Origin: Chryseobacterium sp. 7
Lineage (GTDB): Bacteria > Bacteroidota > Bacteroidia > Flavobacteriales > Weeksellaceae
Reading direction: 5' to 3'
NCBI RefSeq assembly: GCF_003663845.1
Contig: NZ_RCCA01000001.1
Coordinates: 4,464,001-4,528,000 of the forward strand
DNA length: 64,000 nt
The position numbers and the translations under genes are program-made. The notes beneath the pieces were generated by a model. It was not told the DNA's origin. It saw only the letters and a program-made list of their open reading frames with translations, and searched no databases. Numbering within the stretch: position 1 is the first letter of the stretch; the number at the start of each line of letters is the position of its first letter. Shown one piece after another: positions 5,120 through 31,442 of this stretch.

Positions 5120-6853
5120 TTATAACAAGCCCTTAATATGCTTGTAATTTGTCTTTACAGTTTCAAAAACCTCATCCATTTTGCCACCGAGCATCAGCTG
5201 CGTCATAGACTTTGTCATTCCCATAATCTGATCAAATTCAATTTTGGGAGGAAGAGCCAGTGCATTAGGATTGGTAAAGATATTCAGAAGATAAGGGCCG
5301 TTGTGATCTAAACATTCTTTGATAGCAGCTTCCACATCTTCCGGCAGATGTACATTCTTTCCTGGATATCCCATCGCGTGTGCTACCATTGCAAAATCCG
5401 GATTAATCATATCTGTTTCGTTGTCGGGCATTCCGCCTACTTCCATTTCCAGTTTTACCATTCCCAGCGTTCTGTTGTTGAATACAATTAGTTTTATTGG
5501 TAATTTATACTGAAAAATAGTAGCCATATCACCTAACAACATAGATAAACCTCCGTCTCCGCACAAAGCAATCACCTGTTTTTCCGGATGAGCCAGAGCA
5601 GCCCCGATAGCCATTGGCATTGCATTCGCCATTGATCCGTGGTTAAATGATCCCAGCATTTTTCTTTCTCCTGTTCCTGTAATAAAACGAGCTCCCCAAA
5701 CACAGCACATTCCGGTATCTACCGTAAAAATAGCGTCATGTTTAGCAAGTTTGTCTAAAGTATGGGCAACATATTCCGGCTGGATAGCGTTCTCTTTTCC
5801 AAAATCCTTTACGTACTCCAGCTGACCTTCTTTTACTTTATCATAAAACGCAAGCTGTTCATTCAGAAAGTGGACATCAGTTTTTTCTTCCAATAAAGGC
5901 AGCAATGCTTTAATGGTTTCTTTGACATCTCCTGCAAGCCCCAGTTCCAGTTTTGCTCTTCTTCCCAATCTTTCAGGACTTTCATCAATCTGAACTATTT
6001 TATTTTTTACAGGCATGAATTTTTGATAAGGAAAATCTGTCCCCAAAAGAATCACAAGATCTGCTTCGTGCATAGCGTGATAAGCGGAAGGAAACCCTAG
6101 TAGCCCAGTAAGCCCCACTTCATTGGGATTATTAGGCTGAATAGCCATTTTCCCACGGAATGAATATCCTACAGGTGCTTTCAAGAGATTGGATAAGGTT
6201 ATTACCTCATCACGGGCTTCAGCAGCACCTATTCCGCAATATAAAGTTACCTTTTTACTTGTATTAATTAATTCGGATAAATTTTTCAGCTCGTTATCTG
6301 AAGGTCTTATAACAGGGTTTGTTTTAAAGATTTGAGTGGAAGTAGAACCTTCTTCTGCATCCAGTTCTGAAACATCTCCCGGAAGGCCTATGACAGCAAC
6401 TCCTTTTTTGGAAATAGCATGTTGAATAGCCGTCTGAACAGTTCTCTGCACCTGTTCCGGCCTTGTAATCATCTGGTTATAGTAACTGCAGTCATCAAAA
6501 AGCTTTATTGTATTGGTTTCCTGAAAGTAATCCATTCCCATTTCATCACTGGGAATGGTGGAAGCAATTACCAACATGGGAACATGGGAGCGGTGAGCCT
6601 CGTAAACTCCATTGATCAAATGAACATGTCCAGGACCGCAACTTCCGGCACATACTGCCAAACCATCAAGCTCCGCTTCGGCTGCCGCTGCATACGCTCC
6701 TACTTCTTCGTGCCTTACATGAATCCACTGGATGCTGCTTTTTTTAACCGCTATATTCAGATGATTGAGACTGTCGCCTGTTACTGCATAAATTCTTTTC
6801 ACATTGGCATTTTCGAGCATTTCAACAATCTGCTCTGCTATGTTTTTGGCCAT
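5120..6853 (-). CDS. poxB: Pyruvate dehydrogenase (quinone) / pyruvate oxidase PoxB
   Basis: 577 residues with the three-domain layout of thiamine-diphosphate enzymes. The N-terminal Pyr domain has the conserved catalytic Glu in VRHEEVGAYAAAAEAE and the GSCGPGHVHLINGVYEAHR segment typical of PoxB. The C-terminal PP domain has the ThDP/Mg motif (GDGGLSMLLGDMATIFQ, then NNRTLG). PoxB decarboxylates pyruvate to acetate and CO2 and passes electrons to membrane quinone through FAD. The Bacteroidota electron acceptor would be menaquinone, and menD is also in this window (60141-61811). Acetolactate synthase is the main alternative, but the PoxB-type N-terminus and the C-terminal tail argue against it. 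Confidence 0.92.
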   Translation of the reverse strand: MAKNIAEQIVEMLENANVKRIYAVTGDSLNHLNIAVKKSSIQWIHVRHEEVGAYAAAAEAELDGLAVCAGSCGPGHVHLINGVYEAHRSHVPMLVIASTIPSDEMGMDYFQETNTIKLFDDCSYYNQMITRPEQVQRTVQTAIQHAISKKGVAVIGLPGDVSELDAEEGSTSTQIFKTNPVIRPSDNELKNLSELINTSKKVTLYCGIGAAEARDEVITLSNLLKAPVGYSFRGKMAIQPNNPNEVGLTGLLGFPSAYHAMHEADLVILLGTDFPYQKFMPVKNKIVQIDESPERLGRRAKLELGLAGDVKETIKALLPLLEEKTDVHFLNEQLAFYDKVKEGQLEYVKDFGKENAIQPEYVAHTLDKLAKHDAIFTVDTGMCCVWGARFITGTGERKMLGSFNHGSMANAMPMAIGAALAHPEKQVIALCGDGGLSMLLGDMATIFQYKLPIKLIVFNNRTLGMVKLEMEVGGMPDNETDMINPDFAMVAHAMGYPGKNVHLPEDVEAAIKECLDHNGPYLLNIFTNPNALALPPKIEFDQIMGMTKSMTQLMLGGKMDEVFETVKTNYKHIKGLL

Positions 6854-7005
6854 AATTACTTTGTTTTGGTTGATTTTAAGTGAAAATAGGATTAAAAAAG
6901 GATAATAATTTTCCTATTTCTATCAAATTTAGCTAATAAAATTGGAACCTCCATCCGGATTCAATGTTAAAAACTGGTAATTTAATTTTAAGTTTTTTCC
7001 TATTT

Positions 7006-7038
7006 AAACCTCACAGGTTTTGTAAACCTGTGAGGTTT
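7006..7038. repeat. Perfect 15-bp inverted repeat with 3-nt loop
   Basis: Arms AAACCTCACAGGTTT (7006-7020) and its exact reverse complement (7024-7038) surround TGT. It lies between the 3' end of lysA and the 5' end of poxB. It could be a second terminator or a REP-like dispersed palindrome. Confidence 0.85.
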
Positions 7039-7061
7039 AGCACATGAATAAACTAACTCAA

Positions 7062-7093
7062 GAACAAAACAGCCACCCAAAAAGGTGGCTGTT
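7062..7093 (-). terminator. Rho-independent terminator of lysA
   Basis: Ten-bp stem AACAGCCACC / GGTGGCTGTT (7068-7077 with 7084-7093). Read on the minus strand it is followed by GTTTTGTT, 20 bp downstream of the lysA stop. Confidence 0.85.
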
Positions 7094-7112
7094 ATTATAA
7101 TATGCTCAAGAT

Positions 7113-8315
7113 TTACATAACTACTTCGATCTGATTTCTCAACAGATCTTCAAATTCGTCTCTCTTACGGATCAAATGTGCTTTTCCGTCTAAGAATAAT
7201 ACTTCAGCCGGTTTTAATCTTGAATTAAAGTTGGAACTCATTTCAAAACCATAAGCTCCTGCATTGTGGAAAGCAAGAATGTCTCCTTCTCTTACTTCAT
7301 TCAGTTTTCTATCCCAAGCGAAGGTATCTGTTTCACAGATATTTCCTACTACTGTATAAATTCTTTCCGCTCCTTTTGGATTGGATAAGTTCTCAATCAT
7401 ATGATAAGAATCGTAGAACATTGGACGGATCAAATGATTAAATCCGGAATTCACTCCAACAAAAACAGTAGCCGTTGTTTGCTTAATTACGTTAGCTTTC
7501 ACCAATAGATATCCGCTTTTCCCTACTAAGAATTTCCCCGGTTCAAACCATAATTCAAATTTTTTTCCTGTAGATTTTGAAAACTCAGAAATTACTTTTT
7601 CTACCTTTTTACCTAATGTTCTCACATCAGTTTCCTCTTCGCTATCCTGATAAGGAATTTTGAAACCACTTCCCATATCCAGATATTTCAGGTTCGGGAA
7701 ATGTTCAGAAAGGTCCAGCATGATTTCCAAAGCCTGAAGAAATACATCCGGATCTTTGATCTCACTACCTGTATGCATGTGAAGTCCTTCCACATTCAGG
7801 TTTGTACTTTTCATTACTCTTTCGATGTGACGAACCTGGTGAATGGAAATACCGAATTTGCTATCGATATGTCCTGTTGAAATTTTATAGTTCCCTCCGG
7901 CAAAAATATGCGGGTTAATTCTTACTAAAATCGGATAGGTATCTCCGTATTTATTCCCGAACTGCTCAAGAATAGAAATGTTATCAATGTTTATATGAAC
8001 TCCGAAAGTCATTGCTTCCTCTATTTCAGCAAGATCAACACAGTTGGGAGTAAACAATATCTTTTCCTTTGGAAACCCTGCCTTTAGTCCCAGTTTCACT
8101 TCATTAATGGATACACAATCCAGAGAAGCGCCCAGATTCTTGACATACTTAAGGATATTGATGTTGGTCAACGCCTTCGCTGCATAGAAGAACTTTGTAT
8201 GTTTTAAAAAAGAAGATGTAAGTTTTTCGTATTGAACTTTGATGGATTCTGCATCATAAACATACACCGGGGTGCCAAACTCATTGGCAATCTTTAATAA
8301 TTCTTTTGAATTCAT
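7113..8315 (-). CDS. lysA: Diaminopimelate decarboxylase
   Basis: 400 residues, fold-type III PLP enzyme. The PLP-binding lysine is K47 in FFYAAKALTNINILKY. Other family motifs are HTGSEI, the phosphate-binding GSGFKIPYQ, EPGKFLV and the C-terminal NAGAYGFEMSSNFN. It decarboxylates meso-diaminopimelate to L-lysine, the last step of lysine synthesis. The gene is monocistronic, with a terminator at 7062-7093. A leader peptide and a terminator-like hairpin lie directly upstream (8332-8469), suggesting control by transcription attenuation. Confidence 0.96.
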   Translation of the reverse strand: MNSKELLKIANEFGTPVYVYDAESIKVQYEKLTSSFLKHTKFFYAAKALTNINILKYVKNLGASLDCVSINEVKLGLKAGFPKEKILFTPNCVDLAEIEEAMTFGVHINIDNISILEQFGNKYGDTYPILVRINPHIFAGGNYKISTGHIDSKFGISIHQVRHIERVMKSTNLNVEGLHMHTGSEIKDPDVFLQALEIMLDLSEHFPNLKYLDMGSGFKIPYQDSEEETDVRTLGKKVEKVISEFSKSTGKKFELWFEPGKFLVGKSGYLLVKANVIKQTTATVFVGVNSGFNHLIRPMFYDSYHMIENLSNPKGAERIYTVVGNICETDTFAWDRKLNEVREGDILAFHNAGAYGFEMSSNFNSRLKPAEVLFLDGKAHLIRKRDEFEDLLRNQIEVVM

Positions 8316-16931: not shown

Positions 16932-17456
16932 TTACGCTCGGAAATAATGTCCGTTACTCTCAAAATAGTCAAACATTATGCTTCTTGCCGTAGCTTCCCA
17001 ATCGATTATAACCCAATTAGGAATATTAAACGTATCATCTTCATATAAATACTGTACAAAATCTTCATCGCTTCCAAACTCACCGTAGTAAAAATTGTTT
17101 ACGTATTCATATAGGCTCTGGAAGTCTAGTTTGCCTAAGTTATCCAAACACGCTTCGTAAACTTCAACATCATTTCCAGAATCATTGATCTGTTCAAGTA
17201 CATCGTAAATATCTTTTGATATATGGCATTCACTCAATAATCCCAGCTTTTCCAGAATCGGACAGTCATAATCTTGGAATATAAATTCAGGATCATCTTC
17301 ATCACTATGAAGCTCCCGCATTGCTTTTAAAAGATCTTCATAATCAGAATAGTCTGAAAGATTTAGCCATTTGCCGTAAAGGCTTCCGTTATTATACTTG
17401 GCATACGTGCCACAATAGATACTAGCAGTATCAAGACAATTTGTTAACTTTGTCAT
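16932..17456 (-). CDS. ardA: Antirestriction protein ArdA
   Basis: 174 residues, counted from ATG 17454-17456. A longer frame from 17561 adds 35 residues unlike the family. Landmarks: GTYAKYNNGSLYGKWLNLSD near the start, LHSDEDDPEFIFQDYD in the middle and the end motif FDYFESNGHYFR. It is very acidic (long Asp/Glu-rich runs). ArdA is an elongated DNA mimic that occupies type I restriction-modification enzymes, protecting DNA that has just entered a cell. It is a typical cargo gene of conjugative and mobilisable elements, which supports transfer as the source of this island. It is intact, unlike several neighbours. Confidence 0.93.
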   Translation of the reverse strand: MTKLTNCLDTASIYCGTYAKYNNGSLYGKWLNLSDYSDYEDLLKAMRELHSDEDDPEFIFQDYDCPILEKLGLLSECHISKDIYDVLEQINDSGNDVEVYEACLDNLGKLDFQSLYEYVNNFYYGEFGSDEDFVQYLYEDDTFNIPNWVIIDWEATARSIMFDYFESNGHYFRA

Positions 17457-18039
17457 GTTGATAAGTTTTAAGTCAGATTTAAAATTTATTGATGTCGCCT
17501 TGTCGTGCTCCAACACTTCAAGGCATTTTTGTTTTATATCGAACCTTGTACACAAACACACAAGGCTGTTTTAGTAGTAAAGAACAAAGTAAAGATACGT
17601 AAAAAACACGATAACCACCAGTTTTTCAAGTGCTTTTTACTCAAAATATCAATGCTTTTTGGATGGCTTAAAAACTTTTTAATCACTCCAAGCACAGACT
17701 CCATACAAACAACTGTCAAAAAACCTAAACTCTTTGATAGGGGGCAGGCAAAAAAAGTCCGACAACCCTCGCCAAAATTCTATCAGTACCCTTTGTCCCG
17801 ATGCCTATATAAAATTTTTGAGATTGGGTATAGGGGGGGTGCATTTTTACATGAAAATTTGACGGGTGGTGTAAATAGTAGACCAAGTATTATACATTTT
17901 CCCGAAACTCCGCAGACAAAACCACCACTCCACGCAAAACACCACAAACCGTTTACCACAGTTTCCCGAAATATTGGTTTAGGATTGTTAGAAGTGTGTT
18001 AGAGAGAGATTAATTAAGAGATAAAGTATAGTATATATT

Positions 18040-18156
18040 GGTACTATGTAGCAGAAACTCTGAAAAAACCTCTGTTTATAGCAGTTTGCAGAGATTATGA
18101 GTAAGATTTTGCAGTTTGGTTTTGGGGTAAATAGCTAGATATATATTGACAAAATT
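18040..18156. repeat. Island repeat R2, copy 1
   Basis: Shares GCAGAAACTCT, TCTGTTTATAGCAGTTTGCAG-like, GAGATTAT, TTTTGGGGTAAAT and TATATATT..CAAAATT blocks, in the same order, with 18356-18496. CTCTG/CAGAG can pair within it. Confidence 0.7.
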
Positions 18157-18180
18157 ACGTCCAGAAAGCTTTAACAGTGT

Positions 18181-18288
18181 GAAAAAAAAAAAAATGTTTA
18201 AATCAGGCTTCAGAAATTCAGTTCTTCATAATCCTCCGAAAAACTGAAAAACTGAAAAACTGAATCTTAAAAACAAATCTTTTTTATA
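18181..18288. repeat. Extended hairpin repeat, copy A
   Basis: About 100 bp: an A run, ATGTTTAAATCAG, a TTCAG..CTGAA core with GAAAAACTGAAAAACTG, then AAAACAAATC and a T run. Outer and inner arms are complementary. Copies B (19581), C (32181) and D (32644) have the same orientation. Copy A has an extra AAAAACTG unit. Confidence 0.85.
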
Positions 18289-18355
18289 ATCCTAGGTCTT
18301 ATCCGTAAGTCTGCATACAAACAATTACCAATTGAGAACATAGTAGTGTGACATA

Positions 18356-18496
18356 TGCAGAAACTCTCAAAAACACATATGTTTATGGCAGTTTACAGAG
18401 ATTATATATACCGTAAAAACCAAAAATAAGAAGTTAGTACTGGAGGAGTCTCTCGTTTTTTTTGGGGTAAATTGAGCGGTATATATTAGCAAAATT
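18356..18496. repeat. Island repeat R2, copy 2
   Basis: Second copy of the unit at 18040-18156, about 25 bp longer owing to an insertion before TTTTTTGGGGTAAAT. Ends in TATATATTAGCAAAATTC. Confidence 0.7.
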
Positions 18497-18677
18497 CATA
18501 AACTAAAAATCTTTTTCTTTAATCCCCGCCACAAAACCGTCCACACCGTCTACTATACCTTTGAAGATATCTCAGATATCAAAAGCATTTATTAAATATA
18601 ACCAAGTACACATTGGGAAAACATAATATACTTGACAATTTAAAATATTTTTATTTACGGAAAACATAATAAACCGT

Positions 18678-18753
18678 ATATTTGAGCAGAAATAATTTTT
18701 TTTCAAAACCAGTGCGTTTTAGGTCTCTCGATACTTATTGAGGGGCTTTTTTA
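18678..18753 (+). ncRNA. Candidate small RNA with own promoter and terminator
   Basis: TATATTTG (18678-18685) is an exact -7 element. Some 40 bp later a 7-bp stem GTCTCTC / GAGGGGC (18724-18730 with 18741-18747, two G-T pairs) and six T form an intrinsic terminator. No open frame fits between them, so a transcript of roughly 60 nt is expected. The -33 element is poor. Expression and role are unknown. Confidence 0.45.
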
Positions 18754-19104
18754 TTCCGCCACAGTATATCCCTTTACAGAAAAACTACTTCACCGCCCAC
18801 ACACAATACCGCTGCCTATCATAAAAAATATTCTGCGCTCCACTCGCTCACACTCGTCACGTCAGCCACCCGAATAACTACTGCTTCCATATTTCAGCTA
18901 CCTACTACTAACTGTCTACCACCTGCATACAGAGACCGCATACCAGCATACCGTATTACTATATACCATTATATGATAGTGAAAACCCCGCAAACACCCT
19001 CTGTCAGGCTGATAGCGGATTTCGCAGGTTCCTGCTTTAAACAGAACATACAACCAAGACGAACAGAGATGTTGTATAAAGATCTTGTCAGCATTACCCC
19101 ACAC

Positions 19105-19560
19105 AACCACAAAATAGAGATAGTCAAAATTTGATACCTTCACGGAGCTACACAGGCATATTTGCCCCAGCAACCTTACAAATCACAAATAAAGACGTTT
19201 TAAGATATTTTAATAGTTTTTGAGAGTGTTCAGCACAAAACAGAGATGGCGTACGGGAAAATTAAGTAACATTAACCACCCGCTTACATTTAAAAACGAA
19301 AATAAGAGCGTTTTAAAGTACTTTTATAACTTTCGAGGGTATTGTGCTACAAAATGGAGATAATCGAAATTTGACACCTTTATGAGGTTATAGAAGGACA
19401 TCAAGCAGCATTCACTGTTCCTTAAACTCACAAAACGTAAATAAAAACATTTTTAAGACTTTTATAGCAGTTTGACAGCAATACACTACAGAGCAAAGAT
19501 AATGGAAATTTAACGCCTTTACATACTTGTATGAGGACGTTCGCTCATAGCACGTAATAC
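19105..19560. repeat. Degenerate tandem repeats of ~115-140 bp
   Basis: A block like CAAAATAGAGATAATCGAAA appears near 19110, 19235, 19349 and 19490. Between these, a block like AATAAAAACGTTTTAAGA, then TTTTATAG and GAGAGTGTT, appears near 19185, 19297 and 19438. The units have decayed to different degrees. Confidence 0.6.
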
Positions 19561-19580
19561 ATTTCTAAATTAAAGCATCA

Positions 19581-19679
19581 TTGAAAAAAAATGTTTAAAT
19601 CAGGGTTCAGAAATTCATTTTTTCGGATTCGTGCTATGAAAAACTGAAAAACTGAATCGTAAAAACAAATCTTTTTTTG
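19581..19679. repeat. Extended hairpin repeat, copy B
   Basis: Same layout as copy A, but the left inner arm is altered (TTCATTTTTTCGGATTCGTG), so the inner stem is weaker than in copies A, C and D. Confidence 0.85.
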
Positions 19680-19838
19680 AACCCAATATAATCATACCCT
19701 ATAAGTAAGTAGCTTTATAATAGTATTATAATGGGTACTTTTTACTACTGCCCTACTGTGGTACAGAATTTACATAAAATCTTCTTAAAAGCATCCATAT
19801 TGATTCTAAAAAACTGTCAAACAGAACAATAATACGTT

Positions 19839-19914
19839 CCTGCATTCACCATTATATTTCCACGTAAAAACAAACTGTCACATAATTACAAAAATTCTTA
19901 TATTAGCACCTCAA
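19839..19914 (+). promoter_or_regulatory. Duplicated leader/promoter segment, copy 1
   Basis: About 75 bp almost identical to 21031-21111, from TCACCATTATATTTCCACGT to CTTATATTAGCACCTCAA. TATATTAG may be a variant -7 element. It lies 74 bp before the start codon at 19988. Confidence 0.75.
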
Positions 19915-19987
19915 GTTTACTCAGCAACGACTACTCAGTTCAATTAAGACGTATAGACGAGTTAGAAGCAAGCTAAAACACCAGAAA

Positions 19988-20977
19988 ATGTCATTAATAA
20001 TCGCTAGAAATACTCAATCTGACTTCATTATCTCATCGGACACTAAAATTTCTGTAGCAGCTAATTCTCCCAATAACGAAAAACAAACCACATATTTTAA
20101 TAAAAATTCACAAAGACTAGAGATGAGGATACCTCCTATTGAAGGTTGTCTAAAATCAGTACTTGTTTCCCCTATTGTATGTATATGTTACGCAGGAGAT
20201 GTTGAAAATGCTAGAATTTTAATTAAAAATTTTGTCGCTATTACTAAGATTCAATACTTAGATGCCATTACAGAGGAACAATTAAAGTGCATAGAATCTT
20301 TTTTTGAAACAAATACGCCAGAAAATGTTGATATAATTTTAGCAATTTCATTCAATAAATTGCCAGTTTTACATGAGATAAAATCAGGAAAGCTTAACAA
20401 ACAAATTCAAGTTTCACACATTGGAGATGAGAGTGTTTTCTCAGATTTTCAATATTTTTTTAATGAGACACATAAAAGTCAAGAAAATTTACTTTTAAGA
20501 CACTCTTTTTCATTTGACGACATGATAGCACAACAAAGTTCTATAAACTCTTCTGTTGGAGATTTTGTTGTTGAAGTGCTATTCAATTCTGAACATTCAA
20601 TGTTTTATTATAATCAAAAATTTAAGGGATATGATTTATTTAATCCAATTGTAGGCTTTATAGCTAATGAGGCACAAACGACTAGCGAAGAAACAACAAT
20701 CAATGGTAAACATATTGAGTCTTACTTAATCTCTGATACTTTTGAACCAGCTTTTGGGATATACTTTGGAACAACATTTGGATTATTTTATCATCCAATT
20801 AAAATGTTGGAAAGAAACGATTCATTGCAAGGAATAAAAATCAACTGTTCAAACATTGACGATTTTATTCAAAAAGTTTTTGATGAATATGATATTTGGC
20901 TTTATGGGTTGGGATTTGAAAATGGTATGTTAGTAGAGAAATTAACTAGGGGACAAATTTCGCGAAACAAAAAATAG
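19988..20977 (+). CDS. Unknown protein with a proteasome-beta-like (Ntn-hydrolase) N-terminus
   Basis: 329 residues, no signal peptide. I do not recognise it by name. After removal of Met the chain begins Ser-Leu-Ile-Ile. Counting Ser as residue 1, the motif FIISSDTK puts Asp at residue 17, the spacing of Thr1 and Asp17 in proteasome beta subunits. The next blocks (SPIVCICYAGDVENARILI, VDIILAISFNKLPVLHEI, SHIGDESVFSDF) follow the strand/helix order of that fold. A Lys33 counterpart is unclear; Lys31 or Lys38 are the nearest. The fold is my inference from pattern. The gene stands alone behind the first copy of a duplicated leader and is intact. Confidence 0.6.
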   Translation: MSLIIARNTQSDFIISSDTKISVAANSPNNEKQTTYFNKNSQRLEMRIPPIEGCLKSVLVSPIVCICYAGDVENARILIKNFVAITKIQYLDAITEEQLKCIESFFETNTPENVDIILAISFNKLPVLHEIKSGKLNKQIQVSHIGDESVFSDFQYFFNETHKSQENLLLRHSFSFDDMIAQQSSINSSVGDFVVEVLFNSEHSMFYYNQKFKGYDLFNPIVGFIANEAQTTSEETTINGKHIESYLISDTFEPAFGIYFGTTFGLFYHPIKMLERNDSLQGIKINCSNIDDFIQKVFDEYDIWLYGLGFENGMLVEKLTRGQISRNKK

Positions 20978-21030
20978 TCAGCTGCTAACAGAGATTGAAT
21001 AAGATTTCAGCAGACAGGACAATCACACAC

Positions 21031-21111
21031 TCCTACACTCACCATTATATTTCCACGTAAAAAAACATAAACTGTCACATAATTACAAAAATTCTTATAT
21101 TAGCACCTCAA
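21031..21111 (+). promoter_or_regulatory. Duplicated leader/promoter segment, copy 2
   Basis: Near-identical to 19839-19914, with a 4-5-bp insertion after CACGTAAAA. It lies 53 bp after the preceding gene's stop and drives into the structured stretch 21176-21264. Confidence 0.75.
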
Positions 21112-21175
21112 ATTTTATCGAAAACGAAAAAGCGTTAATAATTATTCTGCTAATAGGAATCTGGTAAATTCAAAA

Positions 21176-21264
21176 GTAGTGCAGAATGGTGAGTTGAACG
21201 CTCACGTCCTTATTATACGGGACGTGGGTTTCTCTTGCTTGCACTACAAGGCTTACCAGAGCCT
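21176..21264 (+). ncRNA. Candidate structured RNA
   Basis: GTAGTGCA (21176-21183) pairs exactly with TGCACTAC (21240-21247). Inside is a 9-bp hairpin around CACGTCC / GGACGTG (21203-21209 with 21220-21226), and outside follows AGGCT / AGCCT (21249-21253 with 21260-21264). It lies between the duplicated promoter segment and the next gene, so it may be a 5' leader or a free RNA. No known family is recognised. Confidence 0.45.
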
Positions 21265-21358
21265 CTATTAGTAAGTAAGAATTACGAGCCTGCGTCCTTT
21301 TTCTATTATACACCCTCAATAAATTACACTTTTAGGCTCGGAGTGATACAACATCACA

Positions 21359-21760
21359 ATGAAAAAACTTTTATTATCAGCAGTACTGGTACTACTAAGC
21401 ACATTATGCTTTTCCCAAAACTACTATTTCTCACACAGAAAAGAAAGTATTAAGTACACGGACAGTTACGGACAAACTCAATACAAAGCCATTGCAGACC
21501 AAACCTCTAACTATAAGTTTTATTTTGAACTGTCAGCTGACGGAAGAGGAACACAGCTTTTTACAGTTTATAACAATGGCCAGGAAGCCTATTGGGCAGC
21601 TGAAATAAAAAAATCAGGATATAAAGAGGTTTCAGGAAAGATTTTTAAACAATCCCTGTACTACAACACCAGTTCTAAAGAGAATGTCTATGTGTTCGTT
21701 TCTCAGGATTACAAAAAAATCATTGTGATGTCAAATGATGGAATAGCAGAATATTACTAG
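21359..21760 (+). CDS. Small exported protein of unknown function
   Basis: 133 residues. Signal peptide MKKLLLSAVLVLLSTLCFSQ, then a Tyr-rich mature part (QNYYFSHRKESIKY; IAEYY at the end) likely to be beta-structured. No domain recognised. It starts the run of exported proteins that continues to the RHS genes, and the next gene begins 1 bp after its stop. An overlapping frame at 21235 lacks protein-like character. Confidence 0.75.
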   Translation: MKKLLLSAVLVLLSTLCFSQNYYFSHRKESIKYTDSYGQTQYKAIADQTSNYKFYFELSADGRGTQLFTVYNNGQEAYWAAEIKKSGYKEVSGKIFKQSLYYNTSSKENVYVFVSQDYKKIIVMSNDGIAEYY

Positions 21761-21761
21761 T

Positions 21762-22825
21762 ATGGAAAAGAAAACTATTCAGGTTTACCGCAACATCCCT
21801 AAATCGATAATGATAGGTTTTGCATTAGCTTTTGTAACAGTATTTGCAGTCCAACATTTCAGTACATTCTCATATATCCCAAATACCAGTAATCTACCTG
21901 ATTATACTTCCGATGGGAAATAATTGTAAGCCAGGAATATGACACCCGCACAACGCCTGTTGGTGTATTATACCAGACGACACCATTTGGAACAAAGATA
22001 GATTTACCCACAAACGGAATGATGTGCAGTGAGTTATTGTATGATTCTGAGTTTAAGAGATACTCTAATAAAGTTGTGTTGTATGCAAAAGCTGTATTTG
22101 CCGACTACAAATACCTCCTGCTATTTTGGTTAGCATACATGCTTATCGTCCTGTTTTTCAAAAGATACCGATTAAAAGTTTTGATACTCACCCTCCCAAT
22201 CACTTTGATAAATTGCGAAAACAAGATTGTACAGGAAAAAACTCCAACAACAACAGCAATACAAGCCGATACATCCATTCAGTATACCCCACCGACTGTA
22301 AGCCTGCCTGACCCACAAACAATTCAAAAAAGATACTCTTTTGTGGTTTTTGAAGGGGACGCTTTCTTTTCGCACGAAGGGCAAAAGATAGTAGTTACAG
22401 GAATATTTGAAACGGATGCATTTATCAGCAAAGACAAAGAATACCAGCTCATAGACCAAGCACAACAAAAAGCTATGATAAATCTAGAACTAAAAAACGT
22501 TGAAAAAAGATATATTCTCAGTTTTGACAGTTACGCAGAAGCCAGTCAAAAAAGAGAAGCCTTACTGGGTATCAATCAAAACAACCGAAGTGAAACAACA
22601 GCTAATGAGGGAGAGCAGCCATATCAGGAATATATTGTAATTCAACCCAGAGCATATTTTCACCAAAAACCAAATCAGAACAGCAGAAAAGATACGTATT
22701 TACCGTATGGAGCAAAAGTATTTGTATCAAATGAAACCCAATATTTTGCATACACCACCTTCACAAATACTGATGGGGTAATAAGTAAAGGCTGGATTCT
22801 TAAAACAGACATTGAAATATATTAA
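21762..22825 (+). pseudogene. Frameshifted membrane protein with C-terminal SH3-like domain
   Basis: The first frame (21762-21923) encodes 53 residues with a membrane helix (MIGFALAFVTVFAVQHF) and stops just after GGG at 21915-21917. One more base there joins it to the frame reading GEIIVSQEYDTRTTPVGVLY, then NGMMCSE, to 22825; the whole would be about 354 residues. Next come a second membrane helix (YLLLFWLAYMLIVLFF), a lipobox-like stretch (LTLPITLINC) and a C-terminal bacterial SH3-like part (RAYFHQKPNQNSRKDTYL...GWILKTDI). A separate lipoprotein fused to the membrane part is possible. A single-base loss in a G run, genuine or a sequencing error, is the simplest reading. Confidence 0.75.
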
Positions 22826-22835
22826 ACTCTATATT

Positions 22836-23272
22836 ATGAAAAAACATTTATTACAAGCATTATCGCTAATAGCTACATTATTAATTACAAGTTGCTCGGG
22901 CAACAATGATGATGATAACAACACCACGACCAATCAACAGCCACCTGCAACAACCCAATATTTCCATCCCCAACATGGATTCAGGGAACTTGGGGCGTAA
23001 CAAATGGGACAACCTCAAACAAACTGTATAAGTTTACATCAAATGATGTTATTACAATTACAGGTACATCAGAACTAAGTTTGACAGGAACAATCAAAGC
23101 ACATCCTTATGGTGGAAGTGTAGATGAAAGTATTAACAGCACTACGCAGTATAACTTTACGTTAAAATATAACATGTCACCAACAACACAGAATTTTGAG
23201 TTCAGGAAAATATCAGCAACTCAGATTCAGTGGAAAAGCTATGGAACTTGGTTTGATTTGGTAAAGATGTAA
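22836..23272 (+). pseudogene. Frameshifted lipoprotein
   Basis: ATG 22836 begins a lipoprotein signal (LSLIATLLITSC) followed by an Asp/Asn/Thr-rich linker. The frame fails after TTT 22961-22963. One extra T gives FPSPTWIQGTWGVTNGTTSN, and the same frame runs to the stop at 23272, giving about 145 residues. The restored WIQGTW start and the end ATQIQWKSYGTWFDLVKM suggest a lipocalin-like small barrel. Expected on the outer membrane or the periplasmic face. Confidence 0.75.
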
Positions 23273-23446
23273 CACCTACCAACAGCCTTGTGTCTTTGTA
23301 TACAAGGCTTCTGTAAACACCGATGAAAAGAGGGGCTGACAAAAAACCTCGAAGATAATACCATAGTACTATAAATATCTATACTTATTATTACACTACT
23401 CCCAAATCCATCCAAACCCACTAATCGGGAAAATTCAGAGATAACA

Positions 23447-23518
23447 CGTCAAGTTTTGACGCTTTGACTGTATATCTTTGAAAACAAATAAAGATCAATA
23501 ATAATATCTTTATATTTG
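23447..23518 (+). promoter_or_regulatory. Promoter and palindrome ahead of the RHS operon
   Basis: CGTCAA-GTT-TTGACG (23447-23461) is a perfect 6-bp-arm palindrome. TATCTTTG (23473-23480) and TATATTTG (23511-23518) both fit the -7 consensus; the second is 28 bp before the ATG. Confidence 0.6.
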
Positions 23519-23546
23519 CGCAATTTTTAACATAAAACAACAAAGG

Positions 23547-25082
23547 ATGACAAAACTGTACCTTAGTGCATGTATAATATGCACCTCCCTCACAATGTCC
23601 GCCCAGCAGACACTCTGGCAACGGGACATCAAATCCAGTTCGCAGGATTTTTTAAGCCAGATTACAACAACAATTGACGGCCAGTACCTGATCACAGGAA
23701 GCTCCATACAGCCACCAAGAGCAGGAAGTAAGCAGAACAACGGCTACGATTTTCACTTGATCAAATTGAATCAGCAGGGAAACCAAATCTGGGAAAAGTA
23801 CTTCTCTGGAAACAATCACGACTACCTATCTTCAACTGTCACGACCCAGGATGGTGGTTTTTTGATTTCAGGCACGTCATATTCAAACAAGGGACTGGAT
23901 AAAAAGGACGATTCTAAAGGCAGTTCAGACGTTTGGCTCATTAGAATTAATGAATTTGGAGACGAGCTATGGCAAAAAACTATTGGAACTTTAGCAGATG
24001 AAGAAGCAAGAGCTGTAATTCAGACTACAGATCAGGGATTCTTTGTAGCTGGCAACGTGCAAAACTCTCCTAAAGGCTACGGTTCGAAAGATGTACTTGT
24101 CATTAGATTAGATAAAGACGGAAAAGAACTCTCCCAATTTATTTTTGGATCGAAAGGATTAGACCAGGTCGAGAAGATGATCCCTACACGGGATGGAGGA
24201 GCATTACTCGGAATATACTCCAGAAGCGGTATCGGTGGCACAAAGAAAACAGAAAACTACGGGGAAGGAGATTACTGGATTGTCAAGCTCTCAAAAGATG
24301 GAAAAGTAGAATGGGAGAAGAACTTTGGAGGAAAAGGTGATGATCATATAAGAACACTTGCGTTAACAGCAACGGGTTACATTATCGGTGGAGAATCCAG
24401 ATCAGAAAGATCAGGCAATAAAACCGAAGGAATAGAAGAAGGAACTGATTTATGGGTTATTGCTTTAGATCAAAACGGGAATGAAGGGTTCCAGAAGTCT
24501 TACAGCTTTGGAAACAGGGATATTCTGATGGGAATGAGTGTGATTCAGTCTTCGGATGATAAGTCTATAAAAGGCGTATTATTAGGTGGCTATACGCAGG
24601 CTGAAGGCAGGATAAAAGCCGATGACGAGACGTTTTGGCTATTGTACATTGATCAGCTAGGGAACGAATCATGGAAAAAACATGTCAAAGGTGAATCCAG
24701 ACAAAAAGAAGAAAGGTTATCTGACCTGAAGCTTAACCGTGACGGATCAATCGTAATTGCAGGAACGAGCGCAGAAGAGCTGGGAAAAGAAAACTGGAAG
24801 ATTGTAAAGCTTGGAGATAAGCAGGTAGGTGATCTGATTGAAAAGTATGATATCAAGATCTATCCGAACCCAGTCTCTGATTATGCTTACGTAGAAATAG
24901 GCTTTGATTTTAAGGATGCTGATATTCTATTATATGATATGTCCGGAAGACAGCTTCAAAATCTTACAACCAAAAACAGAGTCACCAAGTTAAACACCCA
25001 GGCACTCATTCAGGGTGCCTATCTGGTGACTATCAAAACTGATACTAATAAAACGGCTAGTGCCAAACTCATAAAGAAATAA
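23547..25082 (+). CDS. T9SS type A sorting-domain protein with propeller-like repeats
   Basis: 511 residues. A signal peptide ends near SAQQ. About seven repeats of the form T-x-DGGxLIxGTS followed by DxWLIRINEFGDELWQKTIG-like segments suggest a beta-propeller. The last ~75 residues (YDIKIYPNPVSDYAYVEI ... LIQGAYLVTIKTDTNKTASAKLIKK) are a classical type A C-terminal sorting signal for the type IX secretion system, so it should be placed on the cell surface or released. It lies 5 bp before the first RHS gene and probably shares its transcript. It could bind or present the RHS products (inference). Confidence 0.9.
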   Translation: MTKLYLSACIICTSLTMSAQQTLWQRDIKSSSQDFLSQITTTIDGQYLITGSSIQPPRAGSKQNNGYDFHLIKLNQQGNQIWEKYFSGNNHDYLSSTVTTQDGGFLISGTSYSNKGLDKKDDSKGSSDVWLIRINEFGDELWQKTIGTLADEEARAVIQTTDQGFFVAGNVQNSPKGYGSKDVLVIRLDKDGKELSQFIFGSKGLDQVEKMIPTRDGGALLGIYSRSGIGGTKKTENYGEGDYWIVKLSKDGKVEWEKNFGGKGDDHIRTLALTATGYIIGGESRSERSGNKTEGIEEGTDLWVIALDQNGNEGFQKSYSFGNRDILMGMSVIQSSDDKSIKGVLLGGYTQAEGRIKADDETFWLLYIDQLGNESWKKHVKGESRQKEERLSDLKLNRDGSIVIAGTSAEELGKENWKIVKLGDKQVGDLIEKYDIKIYPNPVSDYAYVEIGFDFKDADILLYDMSGRQLQNLTTKNRVTKLNTQALIQGAYLVTIKTDTNKTASAKLIKK

Positions 25083-25087
25083 ACAAG

Positions 25088-27886
25088 ATGAAAAAAACAA
25101 TCATTTCACTGGCAATTCTTATTGCTGGTATGGGGCAGCTTTATGCCCAGCAAGAAGTGAATTTCGGAGATTTTCCCAAACCAGTACCTTCCGTTTCTTC
25201 CCTTGCTACCTATGCCAATACTCCTGTTTCCAATGCCACAGGGCTTTCTGATGTTTCATTTTCTTTGTTGGGATTACCCACTTATAATAGCGGAGTGAGC
25301 TTAAATGTGGGATTATCTTACAACCCTATGAATGCTTCTGAAAATGAACCAGCGAGTCAGGTTGGTAATGGTTGGTCGTTATTTGCAGGAGGTGTTATTT
25401 CCAGAAGTATTGTTGGAGATGTTGACGAAATGTATGATAATGCCAGTGTAAGCGGTTATGAAAAAAATAATTTTGATGATATTTACTACTATAGTTTACC
25501 TGGAGCTTCAGGAAAATTAAGATTTAAAAGAAATATACAAAACAATACTTTTGAACTCGTTAATTTATCTTCAAATAAGGTTAGAATCAATTATGTGCCG
25601 GAAAGCAATAATGCAACGCTTATTATAAAATCATTTACAATAACAGACACGAAGGGAATACAATATATCTTTAATGATTACAGCAGAAGTAATCAGAATC
25701 CTGATTCTAATGCACGTGGAGGGAGAATTTATAAATCAGCCTTCTTTTTAACACAAATAAAAGATGCTAATAATATTGAACTGGCTAATTTTTCTTATCA
25801 GAAAGATATAAAATATAAGACCAATGGAACTACCCTTTTATATGAAACCTGCAAGCTAAAAACGATTACTTCTCCGGGATATGGAAAGATAGAGTTTGAT
25901 AACGTGTATGAGCCTTCAATGGAAGGTACAATGAATGACCCTTATAAAGTAGATAAAATCATTTTAAAAGATAATTATAACCATGTTATTTCGGGATATG
26001 CCTTTGAATATATTAATGCTTATAAAAGAACATTAAACAAACTGAAAAAGCTGAATAGAAATTCGATAGGAACAGAGACTACAGAATTTACATATAGTAA
26101 TGTTTCTTATGGTGAGCCTTCATATCCTGGAATCAATTTAGCAGTTCTATGTCCAAGCTATGGTAATGCATTACCTGGTAATATCGAAGTTTTAAAAAAG
26201 GTGATCAATCCTTCTGGAGGAGTCGTTGAATATAATTTCGAGCCACATCAGATGTATTTTAACAGAGCGGATCCAAATTATCTTAACACTATTATGGATG
26301 GTGATAATTATGCAGATCCTGCAGTTCAGTATCTGGAACCAACAAAGGATATAATATATAATACCAATCAGGCAACTGACTATTCGTTTACAGTGTCAGG
26401 AACCAAACCAAGAAAAATATTTATAGCATTTGGTTATGACGAATTATTTACACCCCCTTTATATTGGGATACCAATACTCCTCCATATGTCGACTATTAT
26501 GTTACTAATAATAATGGCGAACAGTTTTTTGGAACAACATGTGGGGCTAATACAATTACAAGAGAGTTTAGTTTAGCCCCGGGAAATTATAAACTAAGAG
26601 TAACAGGTTCTGGTGGAAGAGGCTTAGCTCATATATTTCAAATTGCTCACCTTCCGCTTCCACTTAAAAATTCTACTCAAATTGGGGGAGTAAGAATTGC
26701 GAGTATAAAATACTACAACAGTAAAACAGATGCTACTCCTACAAAAACCACCAAGTTCGAGTATAATAGTTTTTCAGACAGCAATGCTTCTTCTGGATAT
26801 GCTTATTTTCCTGAAATAGATCAAAATGCCAATACTTATTTACTTTATAAAAATGTTAAAGTCACCAATGACAATGACAGTAACGGATATATAAAATACT
26901 ATTATAAGACACCTGATGATTATCCCCAGGAACCATATACAGTGAATGGAGCCAGTAAAATGTATTGGCCATATTATGCTTTTACAAGTGGAGGGCTATT
27001 AGACAAAAAAGAAGTCTATAATTCCCAGAATAAACTACTGGTTTTAGAGAAAAGTGAATATACATTTGCTGATATTCCGGGAGCTTCGGACTATAATCCT
27101 TTTGAGGATGTGTATTCTAAATTAGGATGGCTGAAGAAAACGGTGAATACATCGATTTCTTATTTTGATAACGGACAAAGTATAGAAGAGAAATTGGAAA
27201 CCAATTTCAATGCATTCAATTTTGGCGTAGCATCTACTAAAAATATAGTAGACGGGAATACCGTAGAACAATTCTATACCTATCCTGAAACGGGATATGC
27301 CAACCTTTCTAACGCTCATATTTTAGACGCTCCTGTTCTAGCGGAAGAAAAAAATGACGGAAAAACAGTGTCCAAAGCGGAGACAAAATATGATAATGCA
27401 GGCAGTACGTTACCTACTTCGGTGCTGGCTACTAACCTAAGTGACGGAACGACAAAAACAACAATGAAATTTGATCTCTATGACGAAAAAGGAAACCTCC
27501 TGCAATTAACGTCTTCCGTAGGCATCCCTACAGCTATTGTGTATGGATATGACAAAACACAGCCTATTGCCAGGATAGAAGGAGCAACATATGCACAGGT
27601 AACTCCTTATATTCAGGCTATTGTAGATGCTTCCAATGCAGATGCTCAAAACCCGGCTAATGAGCAGGCACTACTTACAGCACTGGATAATTTCAGAAAA
27701 ACAGCAGCATTGAAGGACTTCCAGATCACCACCACCACCTATGATCCTCTCATAGGAACCACCACCACTACTCCACCTAATGGAATCAGGGTAATCTATA
27801 AGTATGACGCTAATAACAGGTTACAGAAAATAGTGGATATGAATGGGGTAACGCTGAAAGAATACCAATACAACTACAAAAACTAA
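25088..27886 (+). CDS. RHS-repeat-type exported protein (first RHS protein)
   Basis: 932 residues, with signal peptide [20 protein letters not shown]. The N-terminal half ([20 protein letters not shown], then [15 protein letters not shown]) is the region found at the front of Bacteroidota RHS/SpvB-like proteins. The C-terminus shows YD-type repeats ([35 protein letters not shown], ending [10 protein letters not shown]). There is no toxin tip, and the protein is intact. It is followed after 5 bp by a second RHS gene. In TcB/TcC-like systems two RHS halves form a shell around a toxin; a split shell made of this and the next protein is a plausible model but unproven. Confidence 0.88.
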
Positions 27887-27891
27887 ACACA

Positions 27892-30800
27892 ATGAAAAAA
27901 ATAACGCTACTCCTAAATTTGTTTGTGGTTGGCTTTACTTATGCACAGACCAACCTTACACAGACAGAAAATTATATTTATGAGAAAACCTGTTTAACAG
28001 AAGACTGTTCCAAAAAAACAGAAACCGTACAATATCTTGACGGGCTGGGAAGAGTGAAGCAGAATATCGCTGTAAAAGCAACACCCTCAGGAAAAGATAT
28101 TGCTGTTCCTGTGGAATATGACACCTATGGAAGACAGGTAAAAAGCTACCTTCCTGTTCCGCAGTCAGGGACACAGAATGGAGCTTTATATGCAGACCCG
28201 CTTTCTAATGCTTCTTCTCTTTACGGAAATGAAAAAATCTATGCTGAAAAAGTACTGGAATCGTCTCCTTTGGGAAGATCATTACAGCAAAAACAGGTCG
28301 GGAACGACTGGTCTGGACATCCCGTACAGTTTTCATATGATGCCAATACCTCAGCAGATGCGGTAAAAAAATATAGTGTAGTTACAAGCTGGATAGAGGG
28401 ACGAACCAACAGCGAGTTGAGTCTTTCAGGAACCTACGCTGAAAACACGTTATATAAATCTACGGTTACAGATGAAGACGGTAATATAACCACCCAATTT
28501 AAAAATAAGAAAGGACAGACCATCTTAACCAGAAAAAAAGACGGAGTCCAGAATGCAGATACGTACTATATTTACAACGAATATGGCGGACTGGCTTATA
28601 CCCTTCCTCCATTAGCTTCAGCTTCTGCATTAACCCTAGATATGGTAGATAATTTATGCTACCAGTACCGGTATGATGGCTGGAACAGACTCGTGGAAAA
28701 GAAAATTCCAGGAAAAGGCTGGGAGTTTATGGTGTATGACAAGCGGACAGAATGATTCTATCCCAGGATGCGAATCTAAGGAAAACTTTCGACTGGATCA
28801 TCTATAAATACGATGTGTTGGGAAGACCTATTTATACAGGAATCGTAAAGTCTAATAATAGTAGGATCGGGATGCAGAATCAGATCCTTGGGGGAGCTGT
28901 CCTTGAAGGAAGGGATAATACCCCTCTGACAGCAAATGGAATGCCTTATTATTATACCAATATGAATTGGGGGCTCAATACGCTTTTGTCTGTTACGTAT
29001 TATGATTCTTATCCTCAGCAGTATGGCTTTAATCCCCCTGTACCTTCAAGTATTATGGGGCAAACTGTACTGACAGACACCCCTACCACAGATGGAAAGA
29101 GTACAAAAGGACTTCCTGTACTCAGCCTTGTAAAGAATATTGAAGATGATGGCTGGACAAAAACCTATACCTATTATGACAGAAAAGGAAGAGTGATTGG
29201 AGCTCATTCTATTAATCATTTAGGCGGATATTCCAAAACAGAATTATTACTTGACTTTGCTGGTATGATACAACAAAGTAAAGTGCTGCACAAAAGACTG
29301 GCAACAGATCCAGAAAAAGTAATCACACAGACTTTTACCTATGATCACCAGAACAGATTGTTGGTGCATAAACACCAAATTGATTCTAATCCAGAAGAAA
29401 TTTTGGTACAGAATGAATACAATGAGCTTTCACAGCTGAAAAACAAAAAACTTGGGGGAACCAATCCTTCCCAGCCATTACAGAGCATTGACTATACTTA
29501 TAATATCAGGGGATGGAATACTAAGATCAATGATCCTTCCAATCTGAACGGTAAACTGTTTGGATATGAAATGAAATATTCCAGTCCGGTAAACTCCAAT
29601 GTAGCTCCTGGAAAATTCTCAGGAATAATCACAGAAGTAGACTGGAAAAATGCTTCCGAAGATATACTGAAAAGGTATAATTACAGTTATGACGGGCTAA
29701 GCAGGCTAAAGGATGCTGTCTATTCTGAACCTAATGCTACGGTTCCCTTTAACAATTATTACAATGAGCACCTTACTTATGATCTGGGAGGAAACATCAA
29801 GACCCTAAAAAGAAATGCCTTCCCTGTGAACGGAAGTACAGCCACACAGGCAGATGACTTGGTATATGATTATACTGGAAATCAATTGACTAAAGTAACC
29901 GAAAATGCATTGAATGATTCAGGGTATGAAGGCGGAAATAATCTTATTACCTATGATCAGAACGGGAACATGAAAGATATGCTGGATAAAGGAATCAAAT
30001 CCATCCAATACAATTATCTGAACCTTTCCACTGAGTACACTGTTCAGCAGTCAGACGGATTTGGGCTGACGCTGAACAGCAGGATGAACTATCTTTACCG
30101 TGCAGACGGAACCAAACTGCGTAAAACCTATTCCAGTGCACCCCCAAGAGGATCTACCACCACCCGTATTACAGACTATCTGGATGGCTTCCAGTACACC
30201 TACAACGAAGGAGGCGGAATATGTCTTGAATGCAGAACGGAAAGTGCCTTTGAACAGCAGGCTTATAGAAATGCATCATTTGTATTTCCTGGAAATCCAA
30301 CCCCAGAATGGAAGCTGGATTTTGTTTCCACAGCAGCAGGATATTACAGTTTCACAGAAAACCGCTATATTTACCAGTACATAGACCACCTTGGAAATGC
30401 CAGGGTAAGTTTTGCAAAAAACAGCGAAGGTGCTCCTGAAATTATAGATACCAACAATTATTATCCTTTTGGACTGAACCATATTTCAAATTCGTTCAGC
30501 AATTCAGGTTTTGGAAGCTTCTACAGTTATAAATATAATGGCAAAGAACTTCAGGAAACAGGATTGTTTGACTACGGATGGAGACAGTATATGCCTGATC
30601 TTGGAAGATGGAACGGAATAGACCAGTTGGCAGAAGCCTATACCTCGACCAGTCCTTTTGCGTATGTTGCTAACAACCCTGTTTTAATGAGAGATCCTGA
30701 TGGAAGATGGATGGATGATTCAGGGCATATTACCGATACATCAGGCCAGACCTATGGTTTTCTTGGTGCATCATTTAAACCTAAATATGCTACCAATTTT

Positions 30801-31442
30801 CTTGGAATAAATCCTGGAGACGGTGGCGGTGGAAGTGGAAAAGTAGATTACTCTTTATTAGATGGACTTCGAAGTGAATGGGAAAAAAGAGGAATTTATT
30901 CAACTATTTCAAAGAACGGATATCTAACTTATTGGATGGCAGGAGAAGAAGGAGATGCTAATACATCAGAAGAAATGGTAGCTAATATGTTTAAAATTGC
31001 CGATGGTTTGCAAAATAGTCTTATCGATAATTCGTTCAACTGGATTCAAGGTAATCCAATTAAAGTATCACAATTTGCAGGAATGATACAGGCAGGTTCC
31101 ACAGTAGCAGAAAAAGGACTATCAAACTGGAATGGTGCTTCAAATATTACAAAAAGTCGTATTTTTGCAGAAATCATAAGTACAAAACTACCTTTTTCTG
31201 CTAAAGCATTGGGAACTGCTTCAACAGTTTTAAAAGGGTTAGGAACAACTGTTGGTATTGTTGGTTTAACAAATACAGCTTATCAATATAGCCAGGGTAA
31301 AATCTCAGGTACTAGAGCTGTTGTTGATGGATTGATGGGAGTTGCAGGCTTTTTTCCTGCTACAGCTTGGGTATCGGTAGGCTATTTTGCCATAACGGCA
31401 CTTTATGAAACATATGGTAACGATGGTAAACCCCTATTTTAA
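27892..31442 (+). CDS. DUF6443/RHS protein with variable C-terminal toxin-like tip, frameshifted
   Basis: Two frames, 27892-28755 and 28752-31442, form one gene. The first frame ends in VYDKRTE; adding one base near 28744 gives [17 protein letters not shown], the normal RHS sequence. The whole would be about 1183 residues. Signal peptide at the start, DUF6443 region ([20 protein letters not shown]), many YD repeats, then the RHS core end ([45 protein letters not shown]) at about residue 945. After a Gly-rich linker (GDGGGGSG) comes a ~215-residue tip with two hydrophobic helices, compatible with a membrane-active toxin. The break lies upstream of the tip, so the tip would not be exported unless the frameshift is an error. 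Confidence 0.85.

Follow-up and report, generated by a model that had tools for sequence, protein, structure and literature searches.

The window, a 64,000-nucleotide stretch of DNA from Chryseobacterium sp. 7, carries a gene for a 329-residue protein with the predicted characteristics of a proteasome-like N-terminal-nucleophile (Ntn) hydrolase. The gene lies between two direct repeats in a segment that differs from the corresponding segment of a paralogous region elsewhere in the genome (L058). Features are given below; conservation counts are from an alignment of 15 sequences, with the window protein included.

16932..17561, minus strand: ArdA antirestriction gene (Pfam ArdA, 6.5e-18; related second copy in L058)
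19818..19930, plus strand: left direct repeat, which includes TATATTAGCACC (19899) as a putative promoter
19903..21035, no strand: cassette slot, where the two paralogous loci are dissimilar (from alignment of the two loci)
19988..20977, plus strand: predicted proteasome-like Ntn hydrolase gene (329-aa ORF, homologues, conserved residues, fold of an approximately 30% identical homologue)
19991..19993, plus strand: codon for Ser2, predicted N-terminal nucleophile once Met is gone (Thr or Ser in 15/15 homologues; residue 2 of the model of homologue L015 falls on residue 1 of a proteasome beta chain)
20039..20041, plus strand: codon for Asp18, corresponding to proteasome Asp17 (invariant, 15/15)
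20153..20155, plus strand: codon for Lys56, corresponding to proteasome Lys33 by spacing and alignment (invariant, 15/15)
20195..20197, plus strand: codon for Gly70, corresponding to proteasome Gly47 of the oxyanion hole (14/15 homologues)
20630..20974, plus strand: C-terminal region of approximately 100 residues past the predicted beta-subunit domain (boundary approximate, transferred by alignment with L015)
21011..21127, plus strand: right direct repeat, approximately 87% identical to the left repeat
21359..21760, plus strand: gene for a 133-aa secreted-like protein at the slot's right flank (91% identity to the L058 copy)

Homologues of the window protein

Searches of the window protein against Pfam, NCBIfam, PADLOC, PHROGs and PDB sequences gave nothing credible, and the Proteasome model PF00227 matched neither the window protein at E values up to 10 nor anything else in the whole genome. 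A clear copy was present in only one of 320 genomes of the host's family, this being the window gene itself. Weak matches in other genomes of the family, which contained internal stops or covered short ranges, were judged to be due to chance, as was a match to a phytoene-desaturase-like ORF (L017). The first relative was found as a distant match (23% identity, E 3.4e-10) in a single other genome of the Flavobacteriales, and served as the entry point to the rest of the family. Profile and pattern searches added more Flavobacteriaceae, a Nitrospira (L030), a Rhodococcus plasmid (L031) and another Bacteroidota family (L038). Outside the Flavobacteriales the family is thus limited to these last three sources among the sequences found, and its distribution is sparse. 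The viral and phage collections contained no homologue at the sequence level.

In five relatives dN/dS ranged from 0.07 to 0.19, values which indicate selection for a working protein in these relatives. The gene also decays in some genomes: copies broken by early stops or frameshifts were found at three of 13 loci (L021, L023 and L029 (L046)). Such broken copies are common among accessory genes.

The N-terminus and the predicted catalytic residues

The open reading frame starts with an ATG and its product begins Met-Ser-Leu. Upstream of this ATG the frame stays open for 27 more codons without an ATG, GTG or TTG, and Met-Ser is therefore the only plausible N-terminus. The motif Met-[Thr/Ser]-Leu is common to all 15 aligned sequences, with residue 2 being Thr in 13 of them and Ser in two, the window protein and the Nitrospira homologue. 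The first-pass annotation of this DNA had proposed that removal of Met would leave Ser as residue 1 and Asp as residue 17, and these were found as Ser2 and Asp18 when numbered from Met. Gly70 is contained in CYAGDVENARILI (residues 67–79) and lies 14 positions after Lys56, a spacing equal to that between Lys33 and Gly47 of the proteasome beta subunit. The catalytic set of the proteasome-like family within the Ntn hydrolase clan, consisting of Thr/Ser1, Asp17, Lys33 and Gly47 (PMC8665760), thus has its predicted counterparts in the window protein.

These residues bear on whether the protein could be a catalytically dead Ntn-fold protein put to a binding or regulatory use, for which the proteasome alpha subunits provide a precedent (PMC8665760). 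In the distant homologue L038, Ser17, Lys20 and the counterpart of Gly70 have been lost, a decay of the motif which suggests that inactive members may exist. The window protein, however, keeps the full set of Ser2, Asp18, Lys56 and Gly70, and the Thr/Ser, Asp and Lys positions are invariant across the alignment; a dead enzyme is improbable here.

Predicted fold and the C-terminal region

A single-sequence AlphaFold2 model of the window protein had a pLDDT of 31 and was not confident, so the fold of this protein was assigned by homology. The homologue L015, approximately 30% identical to the window protein, was modelled at full length by AlphaFold2 with 14 aligned sequences, the plasmid row L031 being left out, and yielded a pLDDT of 87.6 and a pTM of 0.85. 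The predicted elements of this model are ordered as four strands, a helix-helix pair, strands, a second helix-helix pair, and strands. The best match of this model in the PDB was a Thermoplasma beta subunit (6bdf_1; Z 19.4, 3.1 Å over 179 residues), with residues 2–190 of the model superposing on residues 1–198 of the chain, and Anbu (5nyw_B) matched with a Z of 18.4. All 1000 of the 1000 PDB chains that were re-aligned gave a Z of at least 8, the matches listed being proteasome subunits and Anbu. The viral structures matched by the model included phage proteins with HslV-like and proteasome-like annotations.

The family profile aligned to HslV by hhalign with a score of 33.4 (E about 3e-4), a score reached by none of 200 column shuffles, the best of which scored 23.2, and the reversed profile scored 17.6. 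The sequence alone thus likewise supports homology to HslV. In the L015 model a beta-subunit core with helices H1–H4 is present, and by homology the same core is predicted for the window protein. The proteasome-beta-like Ntn-hydrolase fold originally suggested for this gene is accordingly upheld by the L015 model, its PDB matches, the conserved catalytic set and the similarity to the HslV profile.

The structure matches stop at approximately residue 191 of the 288 residues of L015, and the last 97 residues are uncovered in the listed matches. This C-terminal region of about 100 residues is conserved in most homologues, contains several of the best-conserved positions, and is a mixture of strand and helix in the L015 model.

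The predicted hydrolase gene occupies a variable cassette slot

The region from 16932 to 24000 of the window is duplicated in the genome, the second copy being found at C1:3571000-3579000 (L058) with approximately 72–90% identity in the aligned blocks. Both copies contain ArdA, repeat-rich intergenic DNA, the slot, and the 133-aa gene with the genes that follow it. The flanks of the slot are 90% identical on the left (19482–19902 with L058 2694–3118) and 95% identical on the right (21036–21384 with L058 4356–4700). The hydrolase gene is the single-gene content of the window slot. The slot of L058 (3119–4355) contains a gene for a 201-aa protein that has two hydrophobic segments and is unrelated to the hydrolase, together with a 62-aa ORF, and it is because the paralogous copy carries an unrelated protein that we consider the cargo of the slot to be variable. 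The direct repeats that bracket the window slot are approximately 115 bp in length and contain the promoter-like TATATTAGCACC, and related repeats are found at L058; recombination between such repeats would be a plausible route of cargo exchange. The gene had been described as part of a mobile island with ArdA nearby. The ArdA gene is indeed there, and the island holds in substance, the slot content differing between the two paralogous loci, with the island narrowed to a cassette slot.

Several other features of the region were observed. The 201-aa cargo protein (L058 3455–4060) has a Cys-containing C-terminus and by eye a SLATT-type look, with no Pfam match. Approximately 2 kb of the window at 18000–19900 is without a convincing gene and is rich in direct repeats that are also present in L058. 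A hairpin of 11 pairs with a T-rich tail is located at 21200–21229, between the slot and the 133-aa gene, and has a closely similar counterpart in L058. Farther to the right, at 23547–31442, a secretion-system sorting domain protein precedes RHS-repeat and DUF6443 proteins, and this may be a polymorphic toxin locus.

The rarity of the gene and its position in the slot can be set against a housekeeping-style ring protease whose substrates would be unfolded or damaged proteins, the role suggested for BPH and the uncapped proteasome. Such a role would be consistent with the shared core fold and with the lack of any PF00227 match in the genome. A housekeeping enzyme would not be expected to have so patchy a distribution (one clear copy in 320 family genomes), to reside in a variable slot, or to carry the extra C-terminal region, and no unfoldase was recognised nearby. 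We consider this role quite improbable.

Neighbouring genes in other genomes and the question of defence

The Nitrospira homologue has a UG14 defence-type reverse transcriptase (L030 6348–7886; PADLOC 5.9e-198) encoded 115 bp upstream of it. This link occurred once among the loci read. The plasmid reverse transcriptase matches were distant, at about 26–27% among the matches listed, and no ORF the size of a reverse transcriptase lies beside the window gene. Genes of DNA methyltransferase and HsdM-like type were noted by eye near the homologues L044 and L024. No recurrent neighbour or partner gene was found across the homologue loci. A conserved membrane-protein partner was considered and rejected as not convincing, an immediately downstream neighbour with at least two transmembrane segments being present at three of 13 loci compared to 20 of 120 background ORFs. 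At L019, what appears by eye to be a group II intron-type reverse transcriptase (6624–7886) also ends 115 bp before the homologue; the equal gap in L019 and L030 is probably a coincidence.

These contexts are pertinent to an anti-phage or anti-plasmid effector that would act alone or with a sensor such as the UG14 reverse transcriptase, its cleavage activating or destroying a target during infection. The nearby ArdA, the reverse transcriptase of the Nitrospira locus, the two-transmembrane protein that is the other cargo of the slot, the methyltransferase and HsdM-like genes, and the patchy distribution of the family are each consistent with such an effector. On the other side, the window protein has no PADLOC match, the reverse transcriptase link was seen once among the loci read, no partner gene is conserved, and the papers on defence proteins that were searched do not name the family; the literature on Ntn hydrolases in defence likewise yielded nothing specific. 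A role in defence or host control, for which the argument is one of genomic context, is thus conceivable but less likely than not, and the effector just described is to be regarded as equally tentative. A new class of immune effector, in which a single-gene proteasome-like Ser/Thr-nucleophile protease with a C-terminal sensing or targeting region would be a swappable cargo, sometimes coupled to a reverse transcriptase, and would cleave one viral or host protein upon infection, seems unlikely.

Proposed mechanism

The window gene probably encodes a stand-alone, propeptide-less, serine-type Ntn hydrolase of the proteasome-like kind, carried as slot cargo. The rarity of the gene, its patchy distribution, its isolation and its place as cargo of the slot favour a conflict role that would involve one specific cut or ligation. 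Met1 would be removed by the host methionine aminopeptidase, freeing Ser2; as a rule this enzyme removes Met when a small residue such as Ser follows. A propeptide is absent from proteasome-like homologues apart from the beta subunits and HslV (PMC8665760), and this absence, together with the published Thr/Ser1-Asp17-Lys33-Gly47 set, leads to a catalytic model in which the catalytic centre would consist of Ser1, Asp17 and Lys56 (the counterpart of Lys33), with Gly70 providing the oxyanion hole. The choice of substrate, or assembly, would probably be set by the C-terminal region of about 100 residues and the long loop after strand 2. The enzyme would most probably make a narrow, specific cut in a protein, or ligate it as connectase does, the target plausibly being a protein of a phage or another mobile element.

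Comparison with known systems

The predicted protein shares its core fold with the 20S proteasome beta subunit (Z up to 19.4), and the catalytic residues of the two are in register, but it has 329 residues compared to about 200 and Ser in place of Thr. A 20S proteasome also needs alpha and beta subunits in one genome, and this genome has no PF00227 match. With HslV there is detectable profile similarity and a Thr/Ser at residue 2 straight after Met; HslV, however, is a subunit of approximately 175 residues encoded with HslU, whereas the window protein is far longer and PF00227-negative and the ORFs adjacent to its gene are not HslU. Anbu has the same core fold as the L015 model (Z 18.4), but its C-terminus is a coiled-coil helix (PMC8665760) compared to the mixed strand and helix of the L015 C-terminal region. 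Connectase shows that a stand-alone proteasome-like enzyme with insertions close to its active site can be specific, but is an archaeal protein ligase without H1–H2, both of which are predicted in the L015 model. As for the UG14 system, the adjacent reverse transcriptase is a feature of the Nitrospira locus and not of the window gene.

The closest comparison is with the 22 uncharacterised proteasome-like subfamilies, PMI, DAH, WPH, FC and others, which Fuchs, Alva and Lupas (2021) obtained by sequence mining, some of them in Bacteroidetes and some with C-terminal domains (PMC8665760). Proteasome-like homologues of obscure function are therefore already a known kind. The family described here resembles them in being stand-alone and without a propeptide, in its Thr/Ser1-Asp17-Lys33-Gly47 residues and beta-subunit core, and in its sparse distribution and likewise obscure function; it is unlike them, when compared by description, in its long conserved C-terminal region and traceable slot. 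It is either a further proteasome-like subfamily or a member of one of the 22. What is added is a family identified without any library model, a conserved C-terminal region, and the slot and reverse transcriptase contexts. Were the role defensive, the proteasome fold would be added to the proteases already known from bacterial immunity. Genomic context hinting at function was found for none of the 22 families (PMC8665760); in contrast, the present family offers a slot that varies between two loci and one member beside a defence-type reverse transcriptase, contexts that make the role of stand-alone proteasome-like proteins directly testable.
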